Of a stretch of 64,000 bases of DNA, positions 6,229 through 41,751 are shown piece by piece. Positions within the stretch are counted from its first letter, which is position 1, and the number at the start of each line of letters is the position of its first letter. Below the pieces are notes generated by a model. It was not told the DNA's origin. It worked only from the letters and a program-made list of their open reading frames with translations, and did no database searches. The stretch comes from Diospyros lotus (taxonomy: Eukaryota; Streptophyta; Magnoliopsida; Ericales; Ebenaceae). The stretch is taken from the NCBI RefSeq assembly GCF_014633365.1, contig NC_068349.1, forward strand, positions 23,512,753 to 23,576,752, given 5' to 3'. The translations under genes and the position numbers were made by a program.

Positions 6229-7527
6229 CACTACAAAAAAATAGATTTTTTGCAGTGATTTTTTTGCGACGGTTTTAAAAATCGCTACAAAACATGGTAT
6301 TTTGCGGCGGTTTTTCAACCGCTGTAAAACATGTTTTTTACGACAGTTTATCCGAAATTTTGCGGTGGTTTTGAAAAACGCCGCAAAATTAATTAATTTA
6401 AAATTCAAATATAAATTTCACGGTAGTTTTAACCAACCGTCGCAAAATTCAGCAATAAGAAATAAAATATAAAATATAGTGACGGTTCTGTTCAACCGCC
6501 GCCAAATTCTTTAACAAAAAAATTTTAAAAAAGTTAAATTTAGTGGCGATTTTGTCAAAACCACCACTAAATTCATTAATAAAAAAATTAAAAAATAAAT
6601 TTGGCGGCAGTTTTAATCAACCGCCTCCAAATTCATTAATAAAATTAAATTTAGCAGTGGTTTTATCAAAACCGCCACTAAATTCATTAATAAAAAAATT
6701 AAAAAATAAATTTTGCGGCGGTTTTTGTCAACCGTCGCAAAATTCAGTAATAAAAAATAAAAAATTAAATTTAAAAAAATTAATAATTTAAATAAATTAA
6801 ATTAAATTAAAATTTACAAATTAATCAATTTTTTTTATTTTTTAATCAATTAATTTATTTATATCAGTTAATTTATTTAATTTAATTCAATTTAATTAAA
6901 TAATTTATTTATTTTAAATTTATCAATTAATTAATTTAATTTAAATTAATTAATCTATTAATTAATTTAATTTAATTAATTAGTTTAAAACATTTTATGT
7001 TCAATTAATTAATTTAATATGTTAACTTTTTTTAGGTATTTTGAGAGTTTAATTAATTAATTTAATTTGGAGTTAAGTGTAATTTCAAAAACTTGAGTTT
7101 GTGGGTGCAAAGGTAATTTTGAAAAATAGTGGTTCAATTACTTGATAAATAATATGCGCGAATATATTACAAGGTGGCTTTATAGATCAGGTGGCATCAC
7201 GCGCACACATGCGTACAATAGGTCATGGGATCGAAAATTGGGGAAAGAATTTGCAACAATTAAATTCTAGCAGGTACTGGTGGGTGTGCGCTCGGGCGCG
7301 CAGGGGTGGGGCAATGGCGCGTAGGGGTGAGCCTCGCGCGCGCGTATTATTTTTGTCTGTTGCGAAAATAGCGGTGGTTTTAAAACCGCCGCTAAAATTA
7401 CCAAAACCGTCGTTAAATTTTTTTAAAAATTAAATTTAATATTAAATTCGATTAAATTTACAGCGGTTTTAAAATTGCCGCTAAATTTAAAAAACCGCCG
7501 CTAATTGTAGCGGTATTTAAACCGCTG
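6229..7527. mobile_element. CACTA-like element, left end, truncated
   Basis: Begins CACTACAAAAAAATAG (6229-6244) after an ATA that would be one half of a 3-bp target duplication. It is filled with alternating GCGGCGGTTTT and AACCGCCGC subterminal motifs (6260-6760 and 7370-7525) around an AT-rich core and a short GC-rich part (7190-7350). No transposase is seen. The right terminus is missing: the motif field stops where K-family LTR sequence starts, so the element was truncated or rearranged there. Short frames across it are low complexity and not genes. Confidence 0.65.
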
Positions 7528-7847
7528 CTACGAGACAAGCAGTGTAGTTCAAAATTTTGAACCTTACCCCGATCCCGGCGATTGGATCAACGTCGAAATT
7601 AAATCATTCAAAAACAAATAAATAAATCTAACATTTAGATTATCGAGTCGTTCGCGGATTCGAGCTGTCCAAGCGTCCGGCCTCTAACTCGTGATACGCG
7701 GCACGCGTCCGTTGGCAAGGAGAGCGGAATAGGAGTGTTAGCTCCTTCTCCTTTGCGCGGCTTGTGTATGGACGGTAAAAGAATCGATTTTCAACTCTTG
7801 AAAACCAACAAAATAAAAGTGGCTTAATTTGGGCATCCCATAAAGGG

Positions 7848-8157
7848 CTATATATAGGGAGGCAACCTCCTAGGGTTTCCCAAACCCTAATGAATATGGA
7901 TTGGGCTAGCCCATTAATCCTAGTCTAACTAGAGATTAAAGTGGCCCAAATCCATTTATAAAATATTTGGCCCAAATCTAATTTAAGCCCAAATATTTAA
8001 TATTTAATATTTAGCCCAAATCTAATTTAGCCCAAATATAATATTTATTATTTAATATTTGACCCAAATCTAATTTAGCCCAAATATTTAATTTAATTTA
8101 ATATTTGGCCCAAATACTTTATTTAGCCCAAGTATTAAATTAAGCCCAAATTATTAA
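7848..8157 (-). promoter_or_regulatory. LTR promoter of K: TGGGCC/T array, telobox, TATA
   Basis: Read on the element strand, at least ten TGGGCC or TGGGCT motifs (complement of about 8157-7900) come first. Next are telobox-type AAACCCTA / TTAGGGTTT sequences (complement of 7890-7869), then CTATATATAG (complement of 7857-7848). The same order occurs in the other LTR (15616-15925). TGGGCY (site II, TCP-binding) plus telobox upstream of a TATA box is a known arrangement in plant housekeeping promoters. Promoter activity here is inferred. Confidence 0.55.
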
Positions 8158-8375
8158 ATTAGAAACTTCTTTTCTAATTTAATCATTAAGTTAGAAACTA
8201 CTTTCTAATTTAATCAATTTCTATTTTTAAGAAACTCTTTCCATTATGACGACTCATCGTCATATTGACGTCATTACGTCTATTTGTTCTTTTTCTGTGA
8301 GAACCTATGATGACGTCATTAAGCCAGGGACCGTGCCTATTGCGTATGACTCATTAGGCTTCCGAATATGTTGGC

Positions 8376-8600
8376 TGTAATACCCCGAGAGGCTAGAGAA
8401 GTTAGTATATATCGAGGATAGTGTAAGAAAGGAAACAACACCAGCTGGATACCTTTTGGGCTGAATGTTGGCAAAGAACTCCCAAGTTAAGCGTGCTTGA
8501 CCTGGGGTAATCCAGGGATGGGTGACCCCCTGGGAAGTTCGTGTAGACCCATCAGGATAAGTTGTTCCGGACCTTCCTATCGCTCGATCAGGTCGTTACA
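8376..8600 (+). repeat. Cassandra 5' LTR
   Basis: 225 bp, TG...CA ends. Differs from the 3' LTR at four positions seen by eye, all C/T or G/A transitions. Confidence 0.9.
8442..8550 (+). promoter_or_regulatory. 5S rRNA-like segment with Pol III boxes (5' LTR)
   Basis: Contains AGTTAAGCGTGCTTG (8485-8499), identical to the plant 5S box A core, and GGATGGGTGACC (8516-8527) followed by CCCTGGGAAGTT, matching box C. The 16-base spacing between the blocks equals that of plant 5S rRNA. The outer parts are diverged, so this is not a working 5S rRNA gene but a retained internal Pol III promoter-like sequence. A second copy lies in the 3' LTR at about 8854-8962. Confidence 0.85.
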
Positions 8601-8787
8601 AATGGTATCAGAGCCGACTCTTGGCGAAGGCGGTCCGACGAGGGCGGGGAGTGGCGCCGGGGCTTGAGGGCTTGTACAAGGAGCGGCTTCTGGCAGGCTT
8701 CTAAGATGGCAGCCCCCAAGGGGAGAAGGTCTGGGACCAGTTGTAAGGTCGCATGACGAGGACGTCATGTGCTTAAGGGGGGGAGAA

Positions 8788-9012
8788 TGTAATACCCCGA
8801 GAGGCTAGAGAAGTTAGTATATATCGAGGATAGTGTAAGAAAGGAAACAACACCAGCTGGATACTTTTTGGGCTGAATGTTGGCAAAGAACTCCCAAGTT
8901 AAGCGTGCTTGACCTGGGGTAATCCAGGGATGGGTGACCCCCTGGGAAGTTCATGTAGACCCATCAGGATAAGTTGTTCCGAACCTTCCTATCGCTCGAT
9001 CAAGTCGTTACA
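8788..9012 (+). repeat. Cassandra 3' LTR
   Basis: Direct repeat of 8376-8600, with box A-like sequence at 8897-8911 and box C-like sequence at 8928-8939. Confidence 0.9.
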
Positions 9013-10019
9013 TTGGCAATGTGTCGGTACAAACACATTAGACAAGATTGGCCTCTAGCAAGGCATCATGCCTACCCAATTATTCGGAAGGATTCATAAT
9101 CCGCAAATAACCCTTCACGAGCATGGTTACCGTGTAATTCGATCCTCTCGTCAATGTATCCTATGTGATCTCAAGTTGGCAATGTGTTGCTTGATTATGA
9201 TCACATAAATCTTTCTTCGGTTATCCGGATATCTTCACTTAATAGAAAGTGAATCAATAACTCCTTATTGATCTCTTTCACCATGGCCATGGATTTAAAG
9301 TGAATATCCACCGAAGGCGCCTTAGATACATCATCCTTTATCAAGGGATAGACGAGTCCCATCTTGGTTATGCACCCATCTCCATAAGCCTCACAATATG
9401 CCCAACGATTGCCCACGTGCAGCCTTTATCTAGGCCCATCGAAACGATGTCAAAGCATATCGGTCTTCTTATGAGATGACCGTGACAACCTCAGGTCCAA
9501 GGATTAGTTACACCCATCTCGTATGAGAATTCCATCAACATATAACCAAAATGGATTCTCATGGAGAGTCATGTCCAGTGATACGTTCTCCAACATTGGT
9601 CACCTATGTACTTGTCTAGGCATCCTCATGCCTATGGGTGTGAGACCCCCATTGCTATCACATAGCAAAAACATAGCACATACAAGTCTTACCGCAATTG
9701 TCAATGTCCATTCTTGACATTGCTACGACTTGGGACGTTTAATGATGTCTAGAAACTGTGATGCATCATCTCACATCTTTATAGATTATTCACAGTATAC
9801 ATCATATGGACTTCTATCTAGTTTCATTCGGTTATTACAATAATAACAAGAAACTAATAGAATGACTTCTTATGAATTTGAATAACTCCTTATTCAAATA
9901 ATAACATGATTACAATTGTCAGTGTACAACATGCCCAATCTGATTGGGTCTAGAGCACCTACACTAACAATCTCCCACTTGCACTAGAGCCAATCATTCA
10001 TGTATCTTATACCTGATGA

Positions 10020-13000
10020 TCAAACATGACTTTCATGTTTCTCCTGGGACAGAGCTTTAGTCAAGGGATCTACGACGTTGTCATCCGTCGACACTTTCTC
10101 TATATATGTCACCTCAGCTGATAATCTCCATTATCATATGGTGATATCGCAATACAAATTTGGTCCGTTGATGAGACCGTGGTTCCTTCGCTTACGCGAT
10201 GGCTCCATTGTTGTCCCAATAACTGTTATTGGATCAACAATGCTGGACACCACTTTAAGTTCATCAGAGAACTTACGGATCCATACAACCTCCTTAGCTG
10301 CTTCGAAGGTTGTTATGTATTCGACTTCAATTGTTGAATCTGCCACTATCTCTTGTTGGAACTCTTCCAACTCATGGCCCAGTCATATAGGCATAATATG
10401 AATTTCGACTATACGTGATTTAAAATCATCATGGTCGAATTGGAAACTGGCATCCATGAACCCCTTCGTGGTATGCTCTCATTCTCCATATGGTAAAAAC
10501 ATCTCTTTAGTACTTCACAAGTACTTAAGAATGGTTTTCACAGTAATCCAATGTTTCTAACCTAGATCAGCTTGATATCTACTACATATGCTCAAAGTAT
10601 ATGCGATATCAGGCCTCGTACATAACATGGTATACATGATCGAGCCAATAGCCAAGGCATATTGTGCTCGACTCATCCTATCTCTCTCATCTTGTGTTTT
10701 CAAACACATAGCCTTGGAGAGATGTATTTCATGTGACATGGGAAGAATTCTCCTCCCAGAATCTTCCATGCTAAACCTCTTTAGCACCCTGTCAATGTAC
10801 GTGCTATGGGAGAGTGCTAGCAACCTCCTGGATCTATCTCTATAGATCTTTATTCCCAGAATATAGGCTGCTTCTCCCAAATCCTTCATGGAGAAAATAC
10901 TTTGAAATCCATATTTTAACTAATTGCATCATGGGAACACCATTCCCTATGAGCAATAAATTGTCCACATATAGGACTAAAAGGACCACCACGCTCCCAC
11001 TAACCTTCTTGTAAACACACGAATCAACTTCACTTTTGTGAAAAATAAAACCTTTTGATCTTTTCATCAAAACATTGATTCTAACTCCGGGATGCTTGCC
11101 TTAGTCCATAAATAGACCTTTGCAAGTTGCAAATCTTATTTGTATGTTTATGAGTAACAAAACTGTCAGGCTGTGTCATATACACATTCTCGACCAGGTT
11201 TCCTTTAAGGAAAGCTGTTTTGCCATCCATCTTCCATAACCCAGAGTCAATGTCAGACATTGCCTCATCATAGGTAGTAGGCTCATCGTTCTCAGCTAGA
11301 AGCACATCTCCATGTGCCGAGATGAGAAATCCATATCTCTCTTGCTCGTGACGAACCCTCATCGACCTATAAGGTTCTTGTGTAGAAGGTTGGGGAGTTG
11401 ACACAACTTCTTGTGTCTAACCTTTCTCGGGTTCCTGAAGGGGAGTATTTGTTTGTGGTTTGCCTCGAATCTTATTCGAGCTTAACATTCCTCCCACTAG
11501 CCACAGCATCTAAGAATTCCTTCTCAAGGAATACCACATGCTTGGCAACAAAACACCTTTTGTTCACATGGGTGGTAAAAGTAATATCCATTTGGATATC
11601 CCACAAACAGATATCTCGTCGATTTGGGTTGTAGCTTATTACTGTCAACACGTTTAACATAAATTTGACAACCCCAAATCTTAAGGAAAGAAAAATTTGG
11701 CTTCTTTCCTTTCCATATCTTATATGGAATCCGAGTAACTGATTTACTTGGAACCCTGTTCAAAACAAAGATCGCGGTGAGGAGTGCGTATCCCCAAAAT
11801 GAAATAGGGAGTTCAGCGCGACTCATCATGGACCAGACCATGTCCAACAAGGTCCTATTCCTCCTTTAGACACACCGTTCATCACTGGTGTTCCAAGTGG
11901 AGTCCATTGTAAGAGAATCCTATTCTGCTTCAGATGATTTAGAAACTCACTGTTCAAGTATTCACCATCTCGATCTGATCGAAGTACTTTGATACTTTTC
12001 CCAGTTCATTTCTCTACTTCAAATCTAAATTCGTTGAACTTTTCAAAAGCCTCAGATTTGTGTCCCAAAAGATACACATAACCAAAACATGATCTATCAT
12101 CAATAAAGGTTATGAAGTAGACATATCCACCTCTAGCTTGGGTGGACGTGGGTTCACACTCATCAATGTGCACAAACCCTAGCACTTATGTAGCCTCCAT
12201 TTACTTTAAAAGGAGACTTAGTCATTTTGCCAAGTAAACAAGATTTGCAAGCACCATATGATTCATAATCAAATGTGCTAAGATATCCAGCTCTATACAA
12301 GTTGGATGTGCGAGTCTCATTTATATGGCTTAAGGCGACAATGCCATAAATAAGTGTTATTTAAATCATCTGATTTAAGTCGCTTAGTATTTATGTTACT
12401 GATAGGAGTATCAACATCAAGGACATACAAACTGTTACGTACTGTTGTTTTACCATAAAACAACTCATTTTTATAAAACGAACAACTATTGTTCTTAAAT
12501 AAAAATGAATATCCATCATTGTCAAACAAGAATTAGAAATTATATTCCTAGTCAAACTAAGATTGTAGTAACAGTTATGTAACTCCAATACAAGCCCTGT
12601 GGGCAATGTTAATAAAAAGGTCCCTACAACTAATGGAACAACTCTTGATCCATTTCTCATGTGCAGGTACATTTCTCCCATTATTAATCTCCTCATACTC
12701 CTAAGCCCATACACGAAAGTGTGAATATGAGCATTAGATCCAATATCTAATACCCATGTGGACTGATCAGAAGTAGATCGATTAATTCCAATAACATAAA
12801 TACCTTAAGTGTCCTGAGTAGAACTCTTCTTACTCTACACTTCCCGGTTTATCACAGTGGAGATAGATTGCATCCTTTTTGCCTTTTGGGTTTTAGTCTT
12901 CTGGACTCTTCCAGATTGAGCTATGGAAGAACTCTTGTTCCTTTTGGCTTTCTTACTCTTGGGCTTGCCCCTGTGAGCCTTGGACCCTTCAACTAAGAGA

Positions 13001-13060
13001 ACACTTCCCTTGGCCTATAATCAATTTTAGGCTTGGTCTCCCTAAGTATGGATAATCACT
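10020..13060 (-). pseudogene. K Copia gag-pol, degenerate
   Basis: On the minus strand, from high to low coordinates, there is a lysine-rich gag tail with a decayed zinc knuckle (about 12990-12830). A protease/gag-pre-integrase region follows with NNTYLWHCRL (about 12330) and CKSCLLGKMTKSPF (about 12240). The integrase core has DRSCFGYVYLLGHKSEAFEK and RSDRDGEY (12110-11930), then a C-terminal IWGCQIYVKR block. RT is in pieces: KTAFLKGNLVENVYMTQP, YVDNLLLIGN, and KDLGEAAYILGIKIYRDRSR. RNase H has ADSTIEVEYI (10340) and STDDNVVDPLTKAL (about 10070). Many stops and shifts are present. The N-terminal RT region, roughly 80 codons, is missing where DSGLW runs straight into KMDGKTAF (about 11240). 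It cannot make a working polyprotein. Confidence 0.85.
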
Positions 13061-15262
13061 CTCCAAGAGTTTTTTCCATAGCCGTTAAGGAGGGACTATA
13101 GCACCAAATCTAGGGTAAGTTTCTGCATCCATACCCAAATTTAGCTCTAGCAACTTATTGATAAAACGTATCATCTCCATGACATGGTTCTCAATAGATG
13201 ATCCTTGAGCCTAACCATGATCTCATAGGCATCATAACTCTTATGATACGACCTATGTTTTGGGGTCATGACAGCCAAGACGATATATCAAGCGATGACC
13301 ATATCACCCATGTGCATCGTCTAGGCCTAATGTGCTACTATTTCCTTAACTGGTGGCTTCGTAAGAAGATAGCTCTCTATCGCATAAAGAATCTTATCAG
13401 ATGTGAGGACTATCCTCAAGATGATCTCGTAGTTATAGAAATTAGTCTCATTGAAGGTATTATTGCCCTCGAGTATCGATCTTATCGACATGTTTCCAGA
13501 CATTCTGGATCAACAACTGAATAGAGATATTATTATAATCATATTAAATTGCGAAATCATAAATTGCAAGAAGTAACATTTTATGATTGCTCCCACTATT
13601 TTCTACGAGTTTGCCACCCTCAAGACATAACTCGGGAAATCCCGTTGGAAGATTTCCTAGTGAGCTAGGATCCCATCTCCCCTCGCACAACCTTGAGTGA
13701 CTCAACAAATTGTGCTAGGATCGATTAGGTAGGTACTTGCTACCAATTGCATCTCCATGCAACTCCTAGATTCATTGGGTTGACAACTCCTTGCCAAGCA
13801 CATCTTATGTGACTCCCAATCTTTGCCTGTATACTCAGTAAGGCCTTGAGTGACTCAACAAACCCCACCTTTCTAGTTAAGTCGGACCCATCATTCAGGG
13901 ACATCTCATGGCCCATGAAGCATAGGAATCATAGGTGACACATGACCTTGAGTGACTCAACAAATCAAGTGCCAGCTAGAAACCTAATGCTTCATAATGA
14001 TGGAAGGCAAGTTGGCTTAATATTAATGAGGGATTTATTATTGATTTACTAAGGTCTCATCACATGCAATTAATCAAATTAATAATGCATAATAAACGAC
14101 TCAAACCGGTGTATGGTATGGATAACTACGGCTAGCCCCCTCAAGCCATAGAAGGGAAGCTAGCGGGTCAAACCTAGGTGAAGAATCACATCTTGCTTCA
14201 TAAGCACATTCTTCATGGTCTTCGAATCTTGTCTTCAATTTGGCTCCATCTCTTGCTCTTCATACAAACTACAACTATCGCTACTCTATTCTATTCTACA
14301 TACATTACATAAAATCAAAAACCCCGAGTTACATTCGGGGGGAGTGAGATGAGAAGAGAATGTACATCAGAGTATAAGAGAGGCAGGACACGCAGGCCCT
14401 ATTTCAAAAACCAAATTTACAAGCATTCATTCCCAACATAAAATAAATGGTCGACTTGATCCATACCATACACCCATGTAATCAATCATATTGATTCATT
14501 TAAATTATGTTAATTAATTATCGCATCTATTTCAATCTTAATGAAACGATTTCAATAAATTGAAAATTTGTATAATTTTAGAAAAACAAAATTGTTTTAA
14601 TTGTGTTGGGCTTGGGCTCCATCCATTAGTCTAACTAACAAGGCTCAAAAGGTCTTGGATCAACCAATTCATGTCAAACATACACTAGCAGCCCATAATT
14701 AATAAATAATCCAATTAATGGCCTCGGCCCATTTTTTAATCACGGCCCATAAGTGTCATACACTCATGAATCGAATAAAAATAATAAAAAATAGCCAAAC
14801 AATTTGGCCGGGCCCCACCAAAGGAAACAGAACACACTGGGCCACCGAAGGGTCGGCCTGGGTGCTTCACGTGGACCCTGGGGAATGGTCAAACCAAAGC
14901 CCGAGGGAGCGGGAAGGTCCGGGAGGAGGCTGGCAGCCCAAAAAGGCCAAGGGCGCGCGATTGGGCCGCATGGGGCGCGGCTGGGCCGCGCCTGGGGTGC
15001 GCTGGGCGCGCATGGGGCGCGCGGCCGCGGCCCGTGCGGGCGACAGGGGCCGCGCGGGTCAGCCACACCCGCGCGTGGGTCCAACCCGCGGGTCGCGGCT
15101 GCGCTTGGGGCCGCCTTGCCCGCGCGCGGCCGCGGCTGGAGCCGCCTGCGGGCGCGGCCGCGCCCCAGCGCGCAGGGCCGAGCCTGGCCGGGCCCTGCGC
15201 GGGCCTAAGCCGCCCCAGGCTGTGCCCAGCGCGCGCGTAAGGAATTGAAATATTTCGATGAT
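13061..15262 (-). other. K untranslated leader and gag remnant, GC-rich 5' part
   Basis: Between the primer site and recognisable gag there is no clear coding sequence. 14720-15240 is very GC-rich (GCGCGC / GGGCCGCG-type low complexity) and gives long but composition-driven frames on both strands; I do not regard them as genes. 13691-13964 holds three copies of CCTTGAGTGACTCAACAAA. Confidence 0.5.
13691..13964. repeat. Three 19-bp copies of CCTTGAGTGACTCAACAAA
   Basis: Copies at 13691-13709, 13844-13862 and 13946-13964 sit in otherwise dissimilar sequence. Each contains the near-palindrome TTGAGTGACTCAA, with TGACTCA as a GCN4/AP-1-like core. Function unknown. Confidence 0.75.
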
Positions 15263-15275
15263 GGCTCTGATACCA
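15263..15275 (-). other. K primer binding site (tRNA-Met)
   Basis: Minus-strand TGGTATCAGAGCC, one base from the LTR end; complementary to the 3' end of plant initiator tRNA-Met. Confidence 0.9.
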
Positions 15276-15276
15276 C

Positions 15277-17141
15277 TAAAAGTAAAGCAAGATCGCTACG
15301 AGACAAGTAGCGTAGTTCAAAATTTTGAACCTTACCCCGATCCCGGCGATTGGATCAACGTCGAAATTAAATCATTCACAAACAAATAAATAAATCTAAC
15401 CTTTAGATTATCGAGTCGTTCGCGGATTCGAGCCGTTCAAGCATCCAGCCTCTAACTCGTGATACGCGGCACGTGTCCGTTGGTAAGGAGAGCGGAATAA
15501 GAGTGCTAGCTCCTTCTCCTTTGCGCGGCTTGTGTATGGACGGTAAAAGAATCGATTTTCAACTCTTGAAAACCAACAAAATAAAAGTGGCTTAATTTGG
15601 GCATCCCATAAAGGGCTATATATAGGGAGGCAACCTCCTAGGGTTTCCCAAACCCTAATGAATATGGATTGGGCTAGCCCATTAATCCTAGTCTAACTAG
15701 AGATTAAAGTGGCCCAAATCCATTTATAAAATATTTGGCCCAAATCTAATTTAAGCCCAAATATTTAATATTTAATATTTGGCCCAAATCTAATTTAGCC
15801 CAAATATAATATTTATTATTTAATATTTGACCCAAATCTAATTTAGCCCAAATATTTAATTTAATTTAATATTTGGCCCAAATACTTTATTTAGCCCAAG
15901 TATTAAATTAAGCCCAAATTATTAAATTAGAAACTTCTTTTCTAATTTAATCATTAAGTTAGAAACTACTTTCTAATTTAATCAATTGCTATTTTTAGGA
16001 AACTCTTTCCATTATGACGACTCATCGTCATATCGACGTCATTACGTCTATTTGTTCTTTTTCCGTGAGAACCTACGACGGCAAAACTTCTTGCCGAAGT
16101 GTCCCACTTAACTATACGTCCACTCTCCTAGTTTAAGCCAGGGACCGTACCTATTGCGTATAACTCATTAGTCTTCCGAATATGTTGGCAATGTGTCGGT
16201 ACAAACACATAAGACAAGATTGGCCTCTAGCAAGGCATCATGCCTACCCAATTATTCAGAAGGATTCATAATCCGCAAATAACCCTTCACGAGCATGGTT
16301 ACCGTGTAATTCGATCCTCTCGTCAATGTATCCTATGTGATCTCAAGTTGGCAATGTGTTGCTTGATTATGATCACATAAATCTTTCTTCGGTTATCCGG
16401 ATATCTTCACTTAATAGAAAGTGAATCAATAACTCCTTATTGATCTCTTTCACCATGGCCATGGATTTAAAGTGAATATCCACCGAAGGTGCCTTAGATA
16501 CATCATCCTCTATCAAGGGATAGACGAGTCCCATCTTGGTTATGCACCCATCTCCATAAGCCTCACAATATGCCCAACGATCGCCCACGTGCAGCCTTTA
16601 TCTAGGCCCATCGAAACGATGTCAAAGCATATCGGTCTTCTTATGAGATGACCGTGACAACCTCAGGTCCAAGGATTAGTTACACCCATCTCGTATGAGA
16701 ATTCCATCAACATATAACCAAAATGGATTCTCATGGAGAGTCATGTCCAGTGATACGTTCTCCAACATTGGTCACCTATGTACTTGTCTAGGCATCCTCA
16801 TGCCTATGAGTGTGAGACCCCCATTGCTATCACATAGCAAAAACATAGCACATACAAGTCTTACCGCAATTGTCAATGTCCATTCTTGACATTGCTACGA
16901 CTTGGGACGTTTAATGATGTCTAGAAACTATGATGCATCATCTCACATCTTTATAGATTATTCACAGTATACATCATATGGACTTCTATCTAGTTTCATT
17001 CGGTTATTACAATAATAACAAGAAACTAATAGAATGACTTCTTGTGAATTTGAATAACTCCTTATTCAAATAATAACATGATTACAATTGTCAGTGTACA
17101 ACATGCCCAATCTGATTAGGTCTAGAGCACCTACACTAACA
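15277..17141 (-). repeat. K 5' LTR (1865 bp)
   Basis: Full-length LTR. In element sense it runs from TGTTAGTGTAGG (complement of 17141) to ...CTTTACTTTTA. A related copy at 32305 ends ...ACTTTCA, so the final CA has probably mutated to TA here. TATA at 15616-15625, TGGGCC-type motifs to about 15925, telobox at about 15637-15658. It preserves the empty Cassandra target TATGTTGGCAATGTG (about 16181). Confidence 0.9.
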
Positions 17142-18075
17142 AGTATCTCTCCTTGTAATCCTTCTTTATAGGTTTCAGTGAGTTCTCATTTTATTGGGCA
17201 AGTCCTATATTTTTCCTTACAATAATTCCTTCCAATATGATCTTTTAATCATTCCAGATATTGTTTCATGTCAGTTGGGTTTTGATCACCCACGTTTCCT
17301 TCAGAATGGTGTAGCTATGGTAGGTTTGTATCAGAATAAGAATACTCATATCATATGATGGTTCAGGTATCTGGATGAAATCCCCCACACCCGAATGGCG
17401 TTGTTTGATGTTTGTGCCATAGCCAAATAAGTCTCAACATATCCAAATAGCTTGTGTTTTATAGGCCCAGTATATTCGGATGCCTTATTTTATATCTAGA
17501 TGTCCCTCTCAAGTTTTGGAATTTCATATCCAAATGCCTCAGTGAGATATCTGAACGACATGAATCATATCCGGATGTCCTAGTTCATATTTGAATACAT
17601 CCCAGCATATCTGAATAGCATCTGATTTGAGCGCCAGTGTATTCGGATGTCTTCCATCATATCGAGATATCCTTCCCGATATCTAGATGGCTTTTCTAGA
17701 AATCCAATTAAACTTCCAGTACAACTTAATTCAAGTTTTATTCAAATAAAAATGGTTGAACCTCATGGTAGGCCACGGTATTTTATGTTACGATAATATA
17801 ATATGTTTCACTGCGTATGTTATGGCTCGTTTAATTTAAGCCTATGTATCCTGTTAGCTAAATGGGCAAGACTGGGGCTTCTGGGATTTCCATCTGCATG
17901 TGAAGATTGTTCTTGAAGTCATTGCAGGTGCCGGTCATTGTATGCGACGCGGGTGTTTTATCTGTATGTGAAGATTGTACTCATGGCACCGCGCGTGGCG
18001 GACTTGAAAAAAAAAAAAAAAGAAAATCCCAGGAACTCCCTTATAGTGGCACGCCCGGCGAGGTAGGGTGTTACA
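17142..18075 (+). mobile_element. Tekay-like LTR, 3' portion, with ATCCGGAT-type array
   Basis: Ends GGTAGGGTGTTACA (18075), like the LTR end of element G. 17370-17690 repeats variants of CATATCCGGATG about every 25-30 bases, in the position where G carries CATTCGAATG. Cut on the left by the K insertion. A 15-A run lies at about 18006-18020. Short frames here are not genes. Confidence 0.65.
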
Positions 18076-22314: not shown

Positions 22315-22494
22315 TGTAAGCACCTTAGGCGAATCCCATATCGGCTATGCAAAGGGGGGAACTGGGCATATAAGTGCGGAGGGTGTTCTACATAGTGACG
22401 AGCATTTTGGGATTAAATCCCAGAGCGATAAAATTGGGGATTGGTTGCGACCTAAACCGGATAATACGTTGCTATGTGGACCCTAGCCGTAACA
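22315..22494 (+). repeat. TRIM-like 5' LTR
   Basis: 180 bp direct repeat of 24076-24256, with shared GATTAAATCCCAGAGCG and GGATTGGTTGCGACCT blocks. Confidence 0.88.
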
Positions 22495-22517
22495 TAATGG
22501 TATCAAACCCGACCCCC

Positions 22518-24006
22518 TGAAGGATCATGAACGAGGAAACAAAGCATGCAACGGAAGCGTTTTAAAATCAAAAAACGTTCCTCGTATTGATTAGAATCTA
22601 GGAGACTTACTTTTGCGGCGGATTACCGGACGGAATGGAGCGATGGGAGCTTCTTCGCGTTGTGGAGACGACGGCTGTCCTGCTAGCCTTCGGCTTCGTC
22701 GCATCAGAACTCAAACGCACCCTTTCGATCTTCCGGAGTATGACTCGAACTCGTGGCCTCTCTTCGGTGAAGAAGAATGAAAAACGACTTAGATGAAAAA
22801 ACAACTAAAGAGAGATATATATAGGGAGAACCCTAGGGTTAAAACCCTAGTGGGCCAAACCCTAATGGGCCAAGATCTTTTAATTAATTTTCTAATTGGG
22901 TTAGCCCAATTAATTAATTAAAAACCCTAATGAACTATTATTTTATTCTAGCCCAATGGACCATTCTGAATAAAATAATTCTCTCTCAATGTAATTCATC
23001 CAACAAGCCAAATGTATTAAAAAATACATGAGTTACATCGAGCTACCCCGGGGACCAAAAGACAAATTATTCACGGCTACTAAAATGACCAAAATATCCC
23101 TGCTACCTAGTAGCTATATTTTGTCATTCTAAGTGTTCCAACTATCACCATATGGTAACACTGACCCCACGAATAATTTTGCATATGCCATGTCTTTGAC
23201 CTACTAGTGTAATGACAAAAATACCCCTCTGCGTAACACCCATCATTTAGAAAGGAATAATGTACTAACACCTTTCTAAATGACTTCTACCATCCTTAGA
23301 TCACTAGTCCAATAATCCGTGATTACTCGAATGTACTTGCTTATCACTGGGAGCTACCCAGAAGCACACACTCTTAAGTCACGTTCCCAGGGCCCTGGAT
23401 TATTCGATTATTCTTGGACAATCACAAGGGGGTGAATCACAGAAACTATCTTGTATTAGTCTGTCTTAGCTAATTAGAAACCATACTCCCAACTCAAAAG
23501 GATATTGATCTTTGATAGACCTCACCTACAATGAATCTAAGAATATAGCTCTAGGTTCACTAGACCACCAACTAATACTCAAGTATTAGAGTACTCGTCC
23601 ACGTAGTAGCAGTGATAGACTAGCTCCATGATAATTAGTACTTTGTCATTAGCTTCTATCACAGGTCCACTCTACGCATTCCAAATGCGCTTGTACAATT
23701 AGAGTAAACGGACTGTTTACTGGCTAAGGCAAGCCATCCTCCATTAGGATCTATTGCACAATGATCTTATCATGATAGAATGCCCAGTTCTATCAAAAGA
23801 TCAAGAGTTATATTTTCTTGCTTATTAAGTACCCATGATTCATGCCTAACTGTGAAGAACGACCCATCACATGAATCACTTACTTAATAGCATGGACACC
23901 TTTCCAACAATTAAATGCAAATAATATATGTGCCATAAACTGAATAAAAGAAACATCATTACCATAAATTAAACAAAACGTGTCTTTAGGGCATACATTT
24001 CCAACA
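22518..24006 (-). mobile_element. Solo Copia LTR (1489 bp)
   Basis: In its own sense it starts TGTTGGAAATGTATGCCCTA (complement of 24006-23987), a familiar plant Copia LTR start, and ends at 22518 with CA. Perfect target duplication CCCCC (22513-22517, 24007-24011). No primer site, tract or coding sequence, so it is a solo LTR left by LTR-LTR recombination. The promoter side (complement of about 22920-22812) shows GGGCC/TGGGCT motifs, TTAGGGTTT and AACCCTAGGGTT teloboxes, then CTATATATAT. Confidence 0.85.
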
Positions 24007-24075
24007 CCCCCGAGCCTCTAAGCACGGTGGTGGGGTAAACCTCAGCGAAGACGCTGAGTCCCTAATGGGGGTGCG

Positions 24076-24256
24076 TGTAAGCACCTTAGGCGAATCCCAC
24101 ATCGGACATGCAAAGGGGGGGAACTGGGCATATAAGTGTGGAGGGTGTTCTACATAGTGACGTGCGTTTTGGGATTAAATCCCAGAGCGATAAAATTGGG
24201 GATTGGTTGCGACCTGAACCGGACAATACGTTGCTATGTGGACCCCAACCGTTACA
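24076..24256 (+). repeat. TRIM-like 3' LTR
   Basis: 181 bp partner of 22315-22494, preceded by a short purine-rich AATGGGGGTGCG. Confidence 0.88.
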
Positions 24257-28473: not shown

Positions 28474-30249
28474 CTATTGAACCTTACCCCGATCCCGGCG
28501 ATTGGATCAACGTCGAAATCAAACAATCACATACACAATAAAGTAAATCTAACCTTTAGATTTTTTAGTCGTTTGCGGATTCGAGCCATCCAAGTGTCTG
28601 GCCTCTAACTTGTGATACGCGGCGCGCGTCCGTTGGCGAGGAGAGCGGAATAGGAGTGCTAGCTCCTTCTCCTAACAAAGCTTATGAATGGACAGGAAAA
28701 GAATCGATTTTCAACTCTTGAAAACCAACAAAAACTAAAGCTTTATTTGGGCATCCCATAAAGGGCTATTTATAGAGAAGCAACCTCCTAGGGTTTCCCA
28801 AACCCTAATGGACATGGATTGGGCTAGCCTATTAATCCTAGTCCAACTAGAAATTAAAGTGGCCTAAATCCATTTATAAAATATTTGGCCCAAATCTAAT
28901 TCAAACCCAAATATTTAATACTTAATATTTGGCCCAAATCTAATTTAGCCCAAATATATATTTATTATTTAATATTTGACCCAAATCTAATTTAGCCCAA
29001 ATATTTAATTTAATTTAATATTTGGCCCAAATACTTTATTTAGCCCAAGTATTAAATTAAGCCCAAATTATTAAATTAGAAACTTTTTTCTAATTTAATC
29101 AATTGTTATTTTAGAAAACTCTTTCCTTTATGATGACCCCTCGTCATATTGACGTCATTACGTCTGTTTGTTCTTTTTCCCATGAGAACCTACGACGGCA
29201 CAACTTCTTGCCGAAGTGTCCGTCTTAACCATACGTCCGCTTTCCTGGTTTAAGCCAGGGACCGTGCCTATTGTGTATGACTCATTAGGCTTCCGAATAT
29301 GTTGGTAATGTGTCGGTACAAACACATAAGACAAGATTGGCCTCTTGCAAGGCATCATGCCTACCCAATTATTCAGAAGGATTCATAATCCGCAAATAAC
29401 CTTTCACGAGCATGGTTACCGTGTAATTTGATCCTCTCGTCAATGTATCTTATGTGATCTCAAGTATGGCGATGTGTTTCTTGATAACGATCACATGAGT
29501 TTTCTTCGGTCTTCCGGATATCTTCACTTAATTAGAAAGTAAATCAATAACTCCTTGTTGATCTCTTTCACCATGGCCATGGATTTAAAGTGAATATCCA
29601 CCGAAGGCACCTTAGATACATCATCCTCTATCAAGGGATAGATGAGTCCCATCTTGGCTATGCACCCATCTCCATAAGCCTCACGATATACCCAACGATC
29701 GCCCACGTACAGCCTTTGTCAAGGCCCATCGAAACGATGGCAAAGTATACCGGTCTTCTTATGAGATGACCGTGACAACCTCAGGTCCAAGGATTAGTTA
29801 CACCCATCTCGTATGAGAATACCATCAACATATAACCAAAATGGATTCTCATGGCGAGTCATGTCCAGTGACACGTTCTCCAACATTGGTCACCTATGTA
29901 CTTGTCTAGACATCCCCATGCCTATGGGTGTGAGACCCCCATTGCTATCACATAGCACATACAAGTCTTACCGCAATTGTCAATGTCCATTCTTGACATT
30001 GCTACGACTTGGGACATTTAATGATGTCTAGAAACTGTGATGCATCATCTTACATCTTTACAGATTAATCACAGTATACATCATATGGACTTCTATCTAG
30101 TTTCATTCAGTTATTACAATAATAACAAGAAACTAATAGAATGACTTCTTGTGAATTTGAACAACTCCTTATTCAAATAATAAACATGATTACAATTGTC
30201 AATGTACAACATGCCCAATCTGATTGGGTCTAGAGCACCTACACTAACA
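28474..30249 (-). repeat. K-family Copia LTR, one end missing
   Basis: Aligns throughout with the K LTRs, from TTGAACCTTACCCCGATCC to CTACACTAACA at 30249. It lacks about 50 bases at the left end and has no partner LTR, primer site or coding region next to it. Different sequence flanks each side, so a later deletion or rearrangement removed context. Confidence 0.85.
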
Positions 30250-34279: not shown

Positions 34280-36914
34280 TGTAACGACCCATTGGAGGGT
34301 TTAGATTTTATTTAGAAATTTCTGAATTTCTTAATTAGTATTGTTTAGAGGATTCTTTCCAATTAATTGTTAATATGGAAATCCAGAGATTTTAATTGAG
34401 AAAACATCTTTTAAATAGCATTTAATTCTTTTTATTTATGAGAAATTAAATGCAAGGACTTGAGGGTCATTTAAGGATTTGATATTAGAGTTTAATTGTT
34501 AAACAGAATTAGTGTGATTAAAGGATTAATGAATCCATACGTGAGGAGGATTCGAATTGGAAGACTCCTAGTTGTATAAGGAGATTGTGAAGGCTTTTTA
34601 GGGTTGTTTTCTCTTTATACATATATAAACTTCCATAAGCCATATGTTCTTCACGCCGCAAGAACAGAGAGCCAAGAAGCAATCAGTGAGTTCAAGGATT
34701 TGCATAGAAGGCTCTCGAGAGATCATTGAGTCGATTAAGGAGGTCGTAAGGAAAGTTATTCTCCCTGTAAACTTTTCTTACAAGATCATATATTAGCATT
34801 CGATCATCAGTTCCAGCAGTTCTTCGTTTAAGTTTCAGATTTATGTTACAGTCAGTGTATAGATATATATAGGCACGAGCAGTGAGTTCAAGTCTTGCAT
34901 AGGAGGCTCTCGTGAGATCATTAAGTCGATCAAGAAGATCATAAGGCAAGTATCCTTCCCCGGTAATCCTTTCTTACAGGTCTTGATTGAGTTGGATATC
35001 AGATTTCCATAATTGAATCAGTTCCAGTGCATGTATATTCATATATGTGCGTTATAGTGAGTTATATCAGTTCAGTGCATGTTATATATATATATATATA
35101 TATTTACATGCGTACAGTGAGTTCACAGCAGGCATGCATAATTCCTTTTAGCGATTCTCATCAATATTGTTGTTGAATCATTCTCAAGTTGTTTATTTAT
35201 CAATTGGGATTGTTCTCCCAATATTTCTTTTGGAATGGTGTAATGAATATAAGTTTTGATTCAAGTTATGATCTCTGATATCGTAAGCTGTATATCTGAT
35301 AAGATTCCAGTCATTCGAATAAGTCTTGTGTCATTCGAATGAGTTTCAAAACATCCGAATAAGTTTCAGTGTTATCGTAAGCTTTTCCCTTATAATATTC
35401 CAGTCATTCAAATGAATTCTTGGTCATTCGAATGAGTCATGTGTTATCATATCATTCGTATGAATTTTTGAGGTTTTTAGACTATCATTCGAATGAGCCT
35501 TGTTGTCATTCGAATGAGCTCTTGAATATGTGAGTAAGTTGTTGCTTTGTATAGCTTAGCATTCGAATGAGCCTTCTTGTCATTCGAATGATCTTCAAAT
35601 TGATTCGAAAAAGGTTATTGTTGCATTCGAATGAATCGAGTTTTGCCAGTTCAAATGTTGGAAATTTTCAAAATTCATTCGAATGAATTTGAGAGTCATT
35701 CGAATGAGTCCAAGATCAGATCCGAATAGCCTTGAAATATCATCTATCATTCGAATGAGCCTTCTGTCATTCGAATGAGTTTTCTGCCATTCGAATGAGC
35801 TTGCTGAAATCCCTTTTTTCATTCGAATGGGCTGCTTTTTCATTCAAATTACCTCCTTAGACTTTCTCAATCATCCAAATAGTATCAAATGGCATCCAAA
35901 TAGCTTCCAATAAATTCTTGATTCAAGTTTTAAATTTAATTTGAATATTCAATTATTCAAATATTGAATTTTATGCCAAGATATGATAAAATCCAATATG
36001 TCATGCCTATACTTAGAAATTTTAGAATATTTGAATCTCAATATTTCTAGTAAAAATCATATACCATGTTTAGCAGTTCACTATGACATGGTCAGCATTA
36101 TTTTGTGAGATTATGTGCATACACATTGTATGAGCATTGAGCATGACTTATGTGGAGCACTACATATCGTGTGCCAGCATTTATATGAGCATTGCATTAT
36201 GCGCGCCAGGCGGCTTGTCCGCGGGGATCCCACTAGTATCAGTACAATTATATCTCAGTTATGAGTTGCTCGCCTGATGTCGACCAGGGAGCTAGGGGCA
36301 TATTGCCCAAAGTATGTGCTTACAGTTTTTATGTTTGCAGGACTCAGATCAGTCAGGTATGTGTTACAGTTATGTGGGCCTATGGGCCAAAGTTGCATAC
36401 CTGCATTTAGTTTACAGCTTATGTGCATTACATCTTATAAATGCCATCCAATGATTATTATATCTCTCAGTACAAGTTTAGTAAGTATTTTTATCAGTAT
36501 CGATATTCTTCGATTCAGCTTCAGTTATTCTTTCCAGTTTATTACTTGCTGAGCTTTGTAGCTCACCTTGTACTCTTCACCATTCCAGGTCCTAGTGGGG
36601 GAGTACCAGACGTGGGGCCTAGCAGCAGTGTCCAGTAGTGTGTGTACGTGGAGCCGCTCAAGACCAAAGATGTCTGGGAGTTATTAGTTATTAGTTGTTA
36701 GTTAGTGCTTGATCAGTTTAGATTCATTTTAATTTCCAGTTTAGGGAATTTCCCTTAGATGCAATTATGATTTCAGTTTTCGATGACTCAAAGTCTTATT
36801 ACAGTTAATTGATACATATACAGTATTGGTATCAAAATTCAGTTATCAGTTGGTTTATTTTATTATCCCCAGTAACACCTCTTCTCGGGCAGTTCTAGGA
36901 GAGGGGGTGTTACA
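34280..36914 (+). repeat. G 5' LTR
   Basis: TATA-like ATATATAAAC at about 34618. About a dozen exact CATTCGAATG palindromes plus near copies at about 35310-35850. Hairpin TGAGCTTTGTAGCTCA at 36550-36565. Small substitutions and one indel of about 64 bp near 35460-35530 distinguish it from the 3' LTR. Confidence 0.95.
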
Positions 36915-36918
36915 GTAT

Positions 36919-36930
36919 TGGTATCAGAGC
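36919..36930 (+). other. G primer binding site (tRNA-Met)
   Basis: TGGTATCAGAGC, four bases after the LTR. Confidence 0.95.
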
Positions 36931-37051
36931 AGTGTTTTGAGGAGTCTCCAGTACACACATAGGATGTTGGGTAGAGTTAGGACTTGTGTCCGTCAGTTAG
37001 ATACGTTAACCCAATTTATAGTATTCTAACCCTAAGTGGTGATGCAGGAAA

Positions 37052-40000
37052 ATGAGTAATCAAAGAGGACGACCCCGTACTCGCAGCCAGGCTACTTCTA
37101 CGCCAGGCGAGGTTCCAGTTCCCACACCAGGCTCACCAGGGGATTCTGGTAGTGACTTACGACAGGGTATGGCCGAGATGCGAGGCATGTTGGCAGGCTT
37201 GATGAGGGTAGTCGATACCCTAGTGACGAATCAGGTGAGGCAACCGCAAGTACACCAAGAAGCAAGAGGCAGTGGAGGCGAACCGCTAGTCGCCCCAACA
37301 ACTCCAGTTGTAGCGACAGACACTGGGAGTCAATTATTGAAGGACTTCATGGCGTTCCGACCACCAGCATTCCATGGAGGTACAGATGCAGCAACAGCGG
37401 AGAATTGGATGCTATCAATAGAGAAGCATCTCCGATCTATTGGTTGTGCGGACGACCAACGAGTTCGACTTAGCACGTTCATGTTCAGAGGCGATGCCGA
37501 GAGATGGTGGGAGACTGCCCGCCAGAGGTTTGGTGATCGAGAGCCCACATGGGTTGAATTTCAACAAGTGTTCAACGATGCTTATTGCCCAGCATGGGTC
37601 AAGGAGCAAAAAGTCTACGAGTTCGTGGAATTGGTACAAGGTACTAACACGGTGGCACAGTACGAGGCGGAGTTTACAGCATTGTCACGATATGCTCCGA
37701 AGTTGGTGTCTAGTGAAGCAAAGAAGGCCGCCAAATTTCAGAGAGGATTGCGTGCGGATATCCGACATGCTTTTGGAGGAGCTCTAAGCGTGGATTATGC
37801 CACGGTGGTCCAGCGAGCATATGCTATCGAGCGAGATCGCAATAAATGGAGAGCAACACAAGCAACCAAGAAGGGCACAGGTACATCTCAGGGTTCGTCC
37901 AATAATAATAAGAAGAGGAAGTGGACAGCCGGACAAGGAAATAAAACGGAGAATAATCCACAATGTGGTCAGTGTGGAAGGAAGCACGGAGGACCGTGCC
38001 TAGCTGGGAAGAATGTTTGTTTCAAGTGTGGACAAGAGGGTCATAGAAAGAAAGATTGCCCGAGGAATCAAGCAGCACTCCCCGCACCAGAGGTCACTTG
38101 TTTCAGGTGCGAACAAAAAGGACACACAGCCAACCGGTGTACTCAACCGCCCCAAAATAGAGTTCAGCAAGCAAATCAGAGGCCACCAGCAGCTAGAGGG
38201 CTAGGAGCGGCACCAATACCAGCACTACCAGTAGCTCAGCATCCACCGCCCGCAGATAGACAGGTGCAGGGTAGAGTTTATGCCCTTACCACAGCTGAGG
38301 CAGAGCAGGGCGACGGGACTATCCAAGGTATTCTATCCCTATATGGTCATGATGTGCGTGCATTATTTGATACTGGTTCTACACATTCTTTTATTGCACT
38401 ATGCACAATATGTTATGTTCCCCATTCCCGGATTTCTTTGCCGTACCACTTGATTGTGTCTACGCCGGGAGATAAGATTATGATAGCTAGAGAAATGTTT
38501 GAAAATTGTGAGATCGAGGTCCATGATAAGAAGCTATTGGGAGATTTAGTAATTCTCGATGTTAAGGATTTTGATTTGATCCTTGGCATGGATTGGCTAT
38601 CACGACATTATGCAAGAGTCGATTGTCGGCGAAAGATTATTGATTTTGAACTATCTCAATAGCCAATTCTTATTTATAGAGGAGTCAAGCCTATGTCTAC
38701 GATTCCTATGATCTCAGTGATAAAAGTTGAAAAGCTAATGCGTGATGGATGCGAGGCTTATCTAGCCTTTGTAACCACTGACGAAGGAAGCAAGAAGAAT
38801 TTACCCGAGGTACCAGTAGTACGAGATTTCCAAGAAGTTTTCCCAGATGAGCTACCAAGATTACCTCCTCGGAGAGGATCAGAGTTTACTATTGAATTAT
38901 TGCCTGGTACGCAGCCTATCTCTAAGGCTCCATATCGGATGGCACCTAATGAGCTAAAAGAGTTAAAGGCCCAGTTAGAAGAGTTAATAGAAAAGGGTTT
39001 TATCCGACCCAGTTCATCCCCGTGGGGTGCACCAGTATTGTTCGTGAGGAAGAAAGATAGATCTTTGAGATTATGTATTGACTATCGTCAATTGAACCAG
39101 GTGACAGTGAAGAATAAATATCCCTTACCTCGAGTGGATGACTTGTTAGACCAATTGCGAGGAGCTAAGGTATTCTCGAAGATAGATTTGAGATCAGGAT
39201 ACCATCAGGTGCGAGTTAGAGATGATGATATTCAGAAGACTGCTTTCAGGACTCGCTATGGACACTACGAGTTTATGGTAATGCCATTTGGGTTGACGAA
39301 TGCCCCAGCTATTTTCATGGATTTGATGAATCGAGTTCTACGTGAGTACCTAGATCGATTCATTATTGTCTTCATCGACGATATCCTAATCTACTCACCT
39401 AATATGGAGGAGCATACAGAGCATCTTACTCTAGTATTACAGAGACTCAAAGAAGAGCAACTGTACGCCAAGTTCAGCAAGTGTGAGTTCTGGCTCACTC
39501 AAATTGGATTTCTAGGTCATGTGGTGTCTGGAGATGGTATTTCAGTGGATCCAGACAAGACCAAAGCAGTTATAGATTGGCTGAGACCTACGACTGTGAC
39601 AGAGATACGTAGTTTTCTGGGTCTTGCAGGCTATTATAGGCAATTCATTGAGGGGTTTGCTCATTTATCTTCCCCTATGACTAAGCTAACAAGAAAAGGA
39701 GAAAAGTTTGAATGGAATGACGCCTGTGCACGTGCCTTCCAAGAATTGAAGCGAAAGTTAACTACTGCACCAGTTTTAGCCATTCCAAGAAGTGGAGAGA
39801 AATACTCCATCTACAGCGATGCATCCCATTCAGGTTTGGGTTGCGTATTGATGCAAGAGGGTCGAGTTAATGCTTATGCATCCAGACAATTGAAGAAACA
39901 CGAAGTGAACTACCCTACTCATGATCTGGAGTTGGCAGCGGTAGTATTTGCTTTGAAGATATGGCGACACTATCTATATGGTGAGAAAGTTTAAATTTAT

Positions 40001-41704
40001 ACAGATCATAAGAGCCTACATTATCTTTTATCCCAGAAGGAATTGAACATGAGGCAGAGACGATGGGTCGAGTTATTTAAAGACTTCGACTGTGAGATTC
40101 TATATCACCCAGGAAAGGCTAATGTAGTAGCCGATGCTTTGAGTCGGCGAGGAGCTTCTATGGCTACGATGATGGTTCAAGAATGGAGGTTATTAGAACA
40201 GTTTAGTGTCTTATCTATTTCAACCCCAGAAGATAAACCAGTTGTGAGTTGCGCTTATATGAGAGTACAACCCGAGCTATTTGAATTGCTCAAGACACAG
40301 CAATCGAAAGATGTGAAGTTAGCACAAATCTTAGCAGATATTGAGAAATTTTCTCCTTTGGGATATACTCTACGAAGTGATGGTATACTTTTATTTCAGG
40401 GACGTATTTGTATACCCAATGGTGGAAATCTTAAGCAAGAGATTTTGAATGAAGCACACAAGAGTCGTTACACTATTCATCCAGGTGTTACGAAGATGTA
40501 CCACGACCTTAAGCGACAGTATTGGTGGAGTGGTATGAAGAAAGATGTAGCCAGATATATTTCACAATGTTCAGTATGCCAACAAGTTAAAGCGGAACAT
40601 CAGAAACCCGCAGGTTTATTACTTCCATTACCCATTCCGGAGTGGAAATGAGATAATATTGCTATGGATTTTGTGATGGGTTTACCCAGGACTAATAGAG
40701 GCTACGATGCTATATGGGTGATTGTTGATCGTTTAACTAAATCAGCTCATTTTCTTCCTATTAAGAAGACTTATCCATTAAATAGATTTGCGAAAATTTA
40801 CATTGAGGATATCGTAAAGTTACACGGTGTCCCATCCAGCATTGTATCAGATCGAGATCCTCGTTTTACTTCTCATTTTTGGGGAGCTTTACATGAGGCA
40901 TTGGGATCTCAGTTGAAGTTTAGCACGGCATTTCATCCGCAGACAGATGGCCAGTCAGAGAGGACTATTAGGTCTCTCGAGGACATGTTGAGAGCCTGTA
41001 TTTTAGATTTCCAAGGTAGTTGGGATGAGCATTTACCTTTGGTGGAATTTGCCTACAATAATAGTTTCCATTCAAGTATTGGAATGTCACCATATGAGGC
41101 TTTGTATGGGCGACCATGTCGATCGCCGATATGTTGGGAAGAGATTGGAGATAGGGCTTTATTAGGTCTTGAAATTGTTGAACAGACGACAGAAAAGATC
41201 CGAGTGATCAAAGCAAGAATGAAAACAGCACAAGACAGACAGAAGAGCTATGCAGACAAGCGACGGCGAGACCTCGAGTTTGAGGTAGGCAACCATGTTT
41301 GGTTGAGAGTCATGCCTATTAAAAGTGTGCGAAGATTTGGCGTAACAGGAAAGCTTAGTCCTCGTTACGTTGGTCCATTTGAGATTTTGAGACGGATAGG
41401 GACTTTGGCATATGAGTTAGCTTTGCCACCTCAGTTGTCCTATGTTCACAATGTGTTCCATGTTTCGATGTTGAGGAAGTATGTGCCAGATCCTCAGCAT
41501 GTGATCGATTTTCAGACTCTTGAAGTTAAAGAAGACGTATCTTATGAAGAGATGCCTACCACTATTTTAGAGCATAAAGAGAAAACTTTGAGGAATCGAT
41601 CAATTCCTCTTGTGAAAGTTCAATGGCAGCGTCACTTGGCAGAAGAGGTGACGTGGGAGCTAGAAGAAGAGATGAGGCGTTTTTACCCCTCGTTGTTCGA
41701 GTAA
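37052..41704 (+). pseudogene. G gag-pol polyprotein, three in-frame stops
   Basis: One frame of about 1,550 codons, interrupted only by TAG (38660-38662), TAA (39992-39994) and TGA (40649-40651). Gag lies at residues 1-300. An HGGPC knuckle is followed by CCHC knuckles CFKCGQEGHRKKDC (from residue 323) and CFRCEQKGHTANRC (from residue 350). Protease is ALFDTGSTHSFI (Asp at residue 440). RT has [14 protein letters not shown] and FIDDILIYS, then RNase H with [10 protein letters not shown] and TDHKSL, and the linker GKANVVADALSRR. Integrase has HHCC (CSVCQ), D..D..E landmarks ([27 protein letters not shown]) and a chromodomain-like tail. Each stop lies one transition from a sense codon. All three occur inside pol, so this copy should not make complete pol; gag and protease remain open. 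No frameshift was found. Confidence 0.93.
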
Positions 41705-41736
41705 TCAGTTACGAATTTGGAGGACCAAATTCTTTT

Positions 41737-41751
41737 AAGGAGGGGAGAAAT
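41737..41751 (+). other. G polypurine tract
   Basis: AAGGAGGGGAGAAAT immediately before the 3' LTR. Confidence 0.9.

Follow-up and report, generated by a model that had tools for sequence, protein, structure and literature searches.

Does the small LTR element at 8376-9012 of this Diospyros lotus sequence belong to Cassandra, a lineage of TRIMs reportedly going back to Kalendar 2008, and how would its 5S rRNA-like boxes serve its transcription and movement? We addressed this question in the window, i.e., the whole stretch of 64,000 nucleotides (64 kb) that was analyzed. The first-pass annotation had described a Cassandra TRIM with Pol III boxes in both LTRs, cleanly inserted into an LTR of another element, here called K.

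Structure of the Element and Its Insertion Site

The element and its insertion site comprise the following features.

8376-9012, plus strand: complete small LTR element, 637 bp
8376..8600, plus strand: LTR1 (5' LTR), TGTAATACCCCG...GTCGTTACA, 225-nt direct repeat, 98% identical to LTR2
8601..8787, plus strand: internal domain, 187 bp, non-coding
8603..8614, plus strand: primer binding site (PBS) TGGTATCAGAGC of the initiator Met tRNA type, two bases past LTR1, identical to the Cassandra PBS in PMC7215508
8775..8787, plus strand: polypurine tract AAGGGGGGGAGAA, directly abutting LTR2, read from the sequence
8788..9012, plus strand: LTR2 (3' LTR), 225 nt
8371..8375, no strand: left copy of the target-site duplication TTGGC, read from the sequence
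9013..9017, no strand: right copy of TTGGC, a perfect duplicate of the left copy
7527..9970, minus strand: K LTR hit by the insertion, matching 15295-17142 on either side of the element
15295..17142, minus strand: partner K LTR with the empty site, a single TTGGC directly followed by AATG
28477..30249, minus strand: third K copy, without the element, TTGGTAATG at about 29302; the empty site reads TTGGT

The primer site, polypurine tract and perfect duplication claimed for a 637-bp element could thus all be located. LTR1 and LTR2 are identical at 221 of 225 positions, and both carry TGTAATACC at the start and GTTACA at the end. Each of the four differences reads C or G in LTR1 and T or A, respectively, in LTR2; with the small n of 4, this may be the pattern expected from decay of methylated C. 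Across all six frames, stop-free stretches in the element reach at most 75 codons. The PBS is not specific, with six exact matches in the window including the element's own.

The orientation of the K LTR at 7527..9970 was taken from its PBS and PPT-like positions. When the flanks of the element are joined with one TTGGC, they align across the junction with the partner K LTR, which bears out the clean insertion and the empty site noted earlier; the third K copy is empty as well. The completeness of this copy, its target duplication and the empty site demonstrate a clean insertion without pointing to new biology. With the flanks of the left copy joined, 1802 bases of the left and right K LTRs could be aligned, 30 of which differ (1.7%); a few of these differences adjoin a 46-base gap and are perhaps artefacts of the alignment. 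The third K copy diverges from the other two by 5.5-5.8%. As the K LTRs differ by 1.7% and the Cassandra LTRs by 1.8% (4/225), the ages of the two insertions are indistinguishable by divergence. The nesting of Cassandra within a K LTR, the sole evidence on their order, places the Cassandra insertion second.

A stretch of 46 bases present in the partner and third copies is missing from the left K LTR near 8308, approximately 60 bases to the left of where Cassandra inserted. A link between this loss and the insertion was rejected because the 57 left bases adjacent to the junction align with both the partner and the third copy.

5S rRNA-like Boxes in Both LTRs

The 5S-like parts of the LTRs are listed below; the plant 5S reference used throughout for alignment was a presumed sequence.

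8475..8550, plus strand: 5S rRNA-like region of LTR1, local alignment score 75
8485..8499, plus strand: box A, AGTTAAGCGTGCTTG, matching plant 5S at every base (presumed sequence)
8500..8514, plus strand: intermediate-element region, ACCTGGGGTAATCCA, diverged from plant 5S GGCGAGAGTAGTACT (presumed sequence)
8515..8524, plus strand: box C, GGGATGGGTG, one change from AGGATGGGTG, the canonical box of PMC10853983
8897..8939, plus strand: box A, spacer and box C of LTR2, from the box-pattern search

Against the presumed plant 5S sequence, LTR1 reached an alignment score of 75 and LTR2 a score of 70. The aligned region at 8475-8550 covers bases 40 to 118 of the 119 bases of that sequence, and its initial 60 alignment columns are ungapped with 48 identities (manual count). 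The first-pass annotation would have been undone by a 5S similarity no better than that of shuffled sequence, but dinucleotide shuffles of LTR1 scored 26 at most (0/1000 at 75), and the 839 other window tiles reached no more than 25. Furthermore, we searched the window for the published Cassandra pattern of box A-N18-box C (RGTTAAGYRHGY and RRRATRGGTRACY with 18 nt between; PMC7215508), allowing up to three mismatches. Two matches were obtained in 64 kb, both exact and one per LTR, compared to a mean of 0.00 matches in 100 shuffles. The 16-base spacing proposed from the first reading is likewise present in each LTR, between AGTTAAGCGTGCTTG and GGATGGGTGACC (8485-8527, 8897-8939). A chance likeness to 5S is excluded.

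In the 801 bases searched, the only two Rfam matches, again one per LTR, came from the 5S model (RF00001), at 22.3 bits (E 0.051) and 21.0 bits (E 0.12) over 4227 families. Neither LTR reached the RF00001 gathering score of 38, and the whole window yielded no match at the Rfam gathering threshold; the element is therefore not classed as a 5S gene. Folding of the 119-nt 5S-like stretch was somewhat more favourable than that of shuffles (z -2.06, 6/200 as good), from which no claim is drawn.

Within this region, the 15 bases from box A to box C have drifted at constant length. The intermediate element, which we take to be at 67-72 of 5S, reads CTGGGG here vs. CGAGAG in the presumed plant 5S sequence. 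The number of bases kept in this comparison depends on placement, with 3/6 at 67-72 and 4/6 at 69-74, the latter being implied by the 4-base and 5-base motifs of PMC10853983. An intermediate element with three or four of six bases kept argues against a canonical copy.

Predicted Start and Stop Signals

Numbering by the 5S gene places four signals on the element.

8406..8412, plus strand: TATATAT motif, -30 to -24 of the predicted 5S-type start
8436..8436, plus strand: predicted Pol III start, with box A set as +50 by 5S numbering
8454..8457, plus strand: T4 run of LTR1, +19 to +22
8865..8869, plus strand: T5 run of LTR2, predicted Pol III terminator, +18 to +22 of the predicted LTR2 start at 8848

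Starts had originally been proposed near 8440 and 8854; 5S numbering retains one putative start per LTR and shifts them to 8436 and 8848. TTTT is the terminator of plant 5S genes, and the T-runs of the element may be of this kind. Runs of at least four T occur in the element only at 8454-8457 and 8865-8869. In LTR1 shuffles, TATATA started at -33..-23 in 8/5000 and T4 started at +12..+26 in 142/5000, and both coincided in 0/5000, with these position ranges being defined after the motifs were noticed. The TTTT-free stretch between the two T-runs was considered as a sign of selection and rejected, as 2953 of 5000 mononucleotide shuffles behaved likewise; it is also usual for such a sequence to hold no more than two T4 runs (4540/5000 shuffles).

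From the predicted start to the T-run there are 18 bases in LTR1 and 17 in LTR2, and at most 22 with the T's included. An RNA running from 8436 to the T-run of LTR2 is thus predicted to have a terminal repeat of approximately 18-22 nt. Cassandra RNA starts in the 5S sequence of the 5' LTR, stops in that of the 3' LTR, and carries 18-bp end repeats (PMC10886601); our prediction, then worded as ~20 nt, was made before the comparison with this value. Judged from sequence, this agreement is in favour of a Pol III life cycle, with a Pol II start from TATATAT as a minor possibility. The predicted RNA of 434 nt also folds somewhat better than shuffles (z -2.33, 3/100 as good), from which again no claim is drawn.

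The TATATAT motif itself can be read in two ways. Its distance of ~30 bases to the predicted start also suits a Pol II start, but TATATA at -28 to -23 is normal in plant 5S genes (PMC8264772). The same genes have a GC dinucleotide at -12/-11 (PMC8264772), where the element has TA. Cassandra-related TRIMs of Carduoideae carry TATA boxes and no 5S promoter (PMC10853983), and Cassandra has been found in EST and RT-PCR material (PMC7215508), both of which would fit a TRIM that is mainly transcribed by Pol II from TATATAT and whose 5S-like boxes are inherited and out of use. We nevertheless regard this reading as unlikely, given that box A equals the presumed plant 5S sequence, box C deviates from it by one change, and their spacing is unchanged despite the drift in between. 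Boxes that are kept while the intervening sequence drifts form the pattern expected under selection on the boxes.

Relationship to Cassandra and Other 5S-Derived Sequences

As stated in the first-pass annotation, Cassandra is a known group, with published descriptions in PMC7215508 and PMC10853983. Seven features of Cassandra identity were examined; five were found in the element and none was contradicted, with mixed observations on the other two, the intermediate element and the place of the 5S-like region in the LTR. The five features are the 5S boxes in both LTRs, the box pattern with its spacing, the Met-type PBS, the polypurine tract, and the combination of non-coding content, length and LTR identity. 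According to PMC10853983, 81 Cassandras measure 563-968 bp and have LTR identities of at least 74%, ranges that accommodate the 637 bp and 221/225 LTR identity of our element, which has no coding region. The same source describes a 5S-like region at 25-75% of the LTR and never at the termini, boxes that are kept next to variable adjacent motifs, and an absence of larger indels, and it places the intermediate element inside the shared region of all its Cassandras.

The element resembles Cassandra in its boxes A and C at N18 in both LTRs, the PBS TGGTATCAGAGC, the purine tract, the lack of coding sequence and the length, and additionally in the inter-box drift at constant length and a predicted terminal repeat of ~18 nt. 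It also departs from published Cassandras. Its 5S-like region occupies LTR positions 100-175 of 225 and thus 44-78% instead of 25-75% (boxes A to C at 110-149, i.e., 49-66%), box C starts with GGG, not AGG, and the intermediate element has diverged. With the Cassandra-like TRIMs of Carduoideae it shares small size, non-coding content and a TATA motif near the LTR start; in contrast to these, it has kept its 5S boxes. Compared to a plant 5S gene, box A, box C (one change) and the upstream TATATA are alike, whereas the first 39 bases lie outside the local alignment, the intermediate element has diverged, the GC at -12/-11 is absent and the Rfam score falls below gathering.

A 5S-derived promoter part in TRIM LTRs and a 5-bp duplication are also found in Ajax, a nemertean 5S TRIM that is held to be of independent origin (PMC10886601); unlike our element, Ajax is an animal element of 421-434 bp. 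Ajax shows that separate captures of 5S sequence happen (PMC10886601), and the likeness to Cassandra is known here from the 5S region of the LTRs and the layout. A capture of this kind by a TRIM unrelated to other Cassandras is nevertheless highly improbable for our element, as it agrees with the published Cassandras in size, Met primer site, purine tract and spacing, and chance likeness is excluded by the box pattern and the 5S alignment. Moreover, PMC10853983 defines the lineage by the shared 5S promoter, so that the element would still be filed as Cassandra. Two copies of 5S-derived sequence could also arise from a tandemly duplicated 5S pseudogene or a 5S-derived SINE in the absence of any LTR element, a reading with next to no probability that is already refuted by the element structure, i.e., the TG...CA ends, the primer site, the purine tract, the 5-bp duplication outside both repeats, and the empty site in two K copies.

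Proposed Life Cycle

The best explanation of the locus is a structurally complete Cassandra-type TRIM that is transcribed by Pol III and mobilized by proteins provided in trans (probability of approximately 0.9). We infer the Pol III transcription, its start and stop, and the protein supply in trans from the arrangement of the signals. In this life cycle, the 5S-like boxes of the 5' LTR would recruit host TFIIIA, TFIIIC and TFIIIB, and the upstream TATATAT would assist these factors, giving a Pol III start near 8436. The RNA would pass the primer site and the internal domain and end at the 3' LTR T-run at 8865-8869. This T-run lies just past the 3' LTR equivalent of the start, which would leave the terminal repeat of ~18-22 nt at both RNA ends. 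As the same T-run occurs early in the LTR1 transcript, read-through has to be assumed there. Proteins of an autonomous LTR element would then package the Cassandra RNA, the initiator Met tRNA would prime at TGGTATCAGAGC, the second strand would be completed from the purine tract, and the DNA would integrate via a 5-bp staggered cut.

According to PMC10886601, nothing indicates which autonomous element moves Cassandra, and the window does not reveal one. When LTR1, the internal domain, the first 40 bases and the purine-tract junction were compared with the window, only matches of 11-15 bases were obtained. The short-match search within the window returned 13 rows with a best E of 0.094, five of which were the primer site. 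An autonomous partner inside the window was rejected on the basis of these short matches. A box-pattern scan of viral and bacterial/archaeal contig collections yielded no match; plant copies are not expected there.

As a more specific and rather doubtful proposal, boxes A and C at 5S spacing, the upstream TATATAT and the start-proximal T-run may form a composite switch in which the intermediate element has decayed. If true, an active Cassandra would need no intermediate element for Pol III, given an upstream TATA.

Other Elements and Genes in the Window

The K element provisionally extends over 7527-17142 on the minus strand, and its LTR starts with TGTTAGTG after AAGTGGGAGAT, a start that is presumably Ty1/copia-like. 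Between its LTRs, no stop-free stretch of at least 150 codons is listed on its own strand, and K may therefore be non-autonomous. On the opposite strand, the GC-rich part at 14706-15248 is open in two frames that overlap each other, over 180 and 150 codons, with a high content of Ala/Gly/Pro/Arg; it is probably not a gene.

A second short LTR element at 22315-24256 has repeats of ~180 bp (TGTAAGCACC...GTAACA/GTTACA) that are 93% alike, a perfect CTAAA duplication on both sides and an internal part of ~1.58 kb. Right past its first repeat lies TGGTATCAAACC, with two mismatches to the PBS, and its LTR contains TATAAG; its appearance is that of a Pol II-type element. At 34280-44322 lies a Ty3-type element with LTRs of ~2.6 kb and four stop-separated frames that show matches to gag, protease, RT, RNase H, integrase zinc-binding and Tf2-1-like SH3. 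Its purine tract agrees with that of Cassandra in 14 of 15 bases (E 0.38), which was discarded as evidence.

A metal tolerance protein 1 gene is located at 47745-48974 on the minus strand according to Pfam and homologue names. Among the best 120 of 1846 matches (E <=1e-50), the product is 94% identical to Diospyros lotus MTP1 over the whole query, and the other full-query matches show 76% identity or less; first by E-value is a match from Syzygium grande (64% over 88%), with that of Diospyros lotus ranking second.

Significance

The element is a clean example of the Cassandra lineage, not a new kind of system. Both the structure and the name given in the first-pass annotation were correct. A limited look at the literature found no Cassandra description from Ericales, with 'Ericales' absent from the text of PMC10853983 and both 'Diospyros' and 'Actinidia' absent from that of PMC4717578. 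Within the same limited coverage, no paper was found that names Diospyros, Cassandra and retrotransposon together, which says little. What the locus contributes is a complete Cassandra copy from an Ebenaceae (Ericales) host, together with an empty-site control; of interest are this host and the signals predicted for start and stop. The copy separates parts that have drifted, i.e., the intermediate element and the spacer, from parts that have been kept, i.e., boxes A and C and their spacing. These drifted and kept parts bear on the question, raised in PMC10853983, of whether Cassandra promoters follow the 5S gene of their host.
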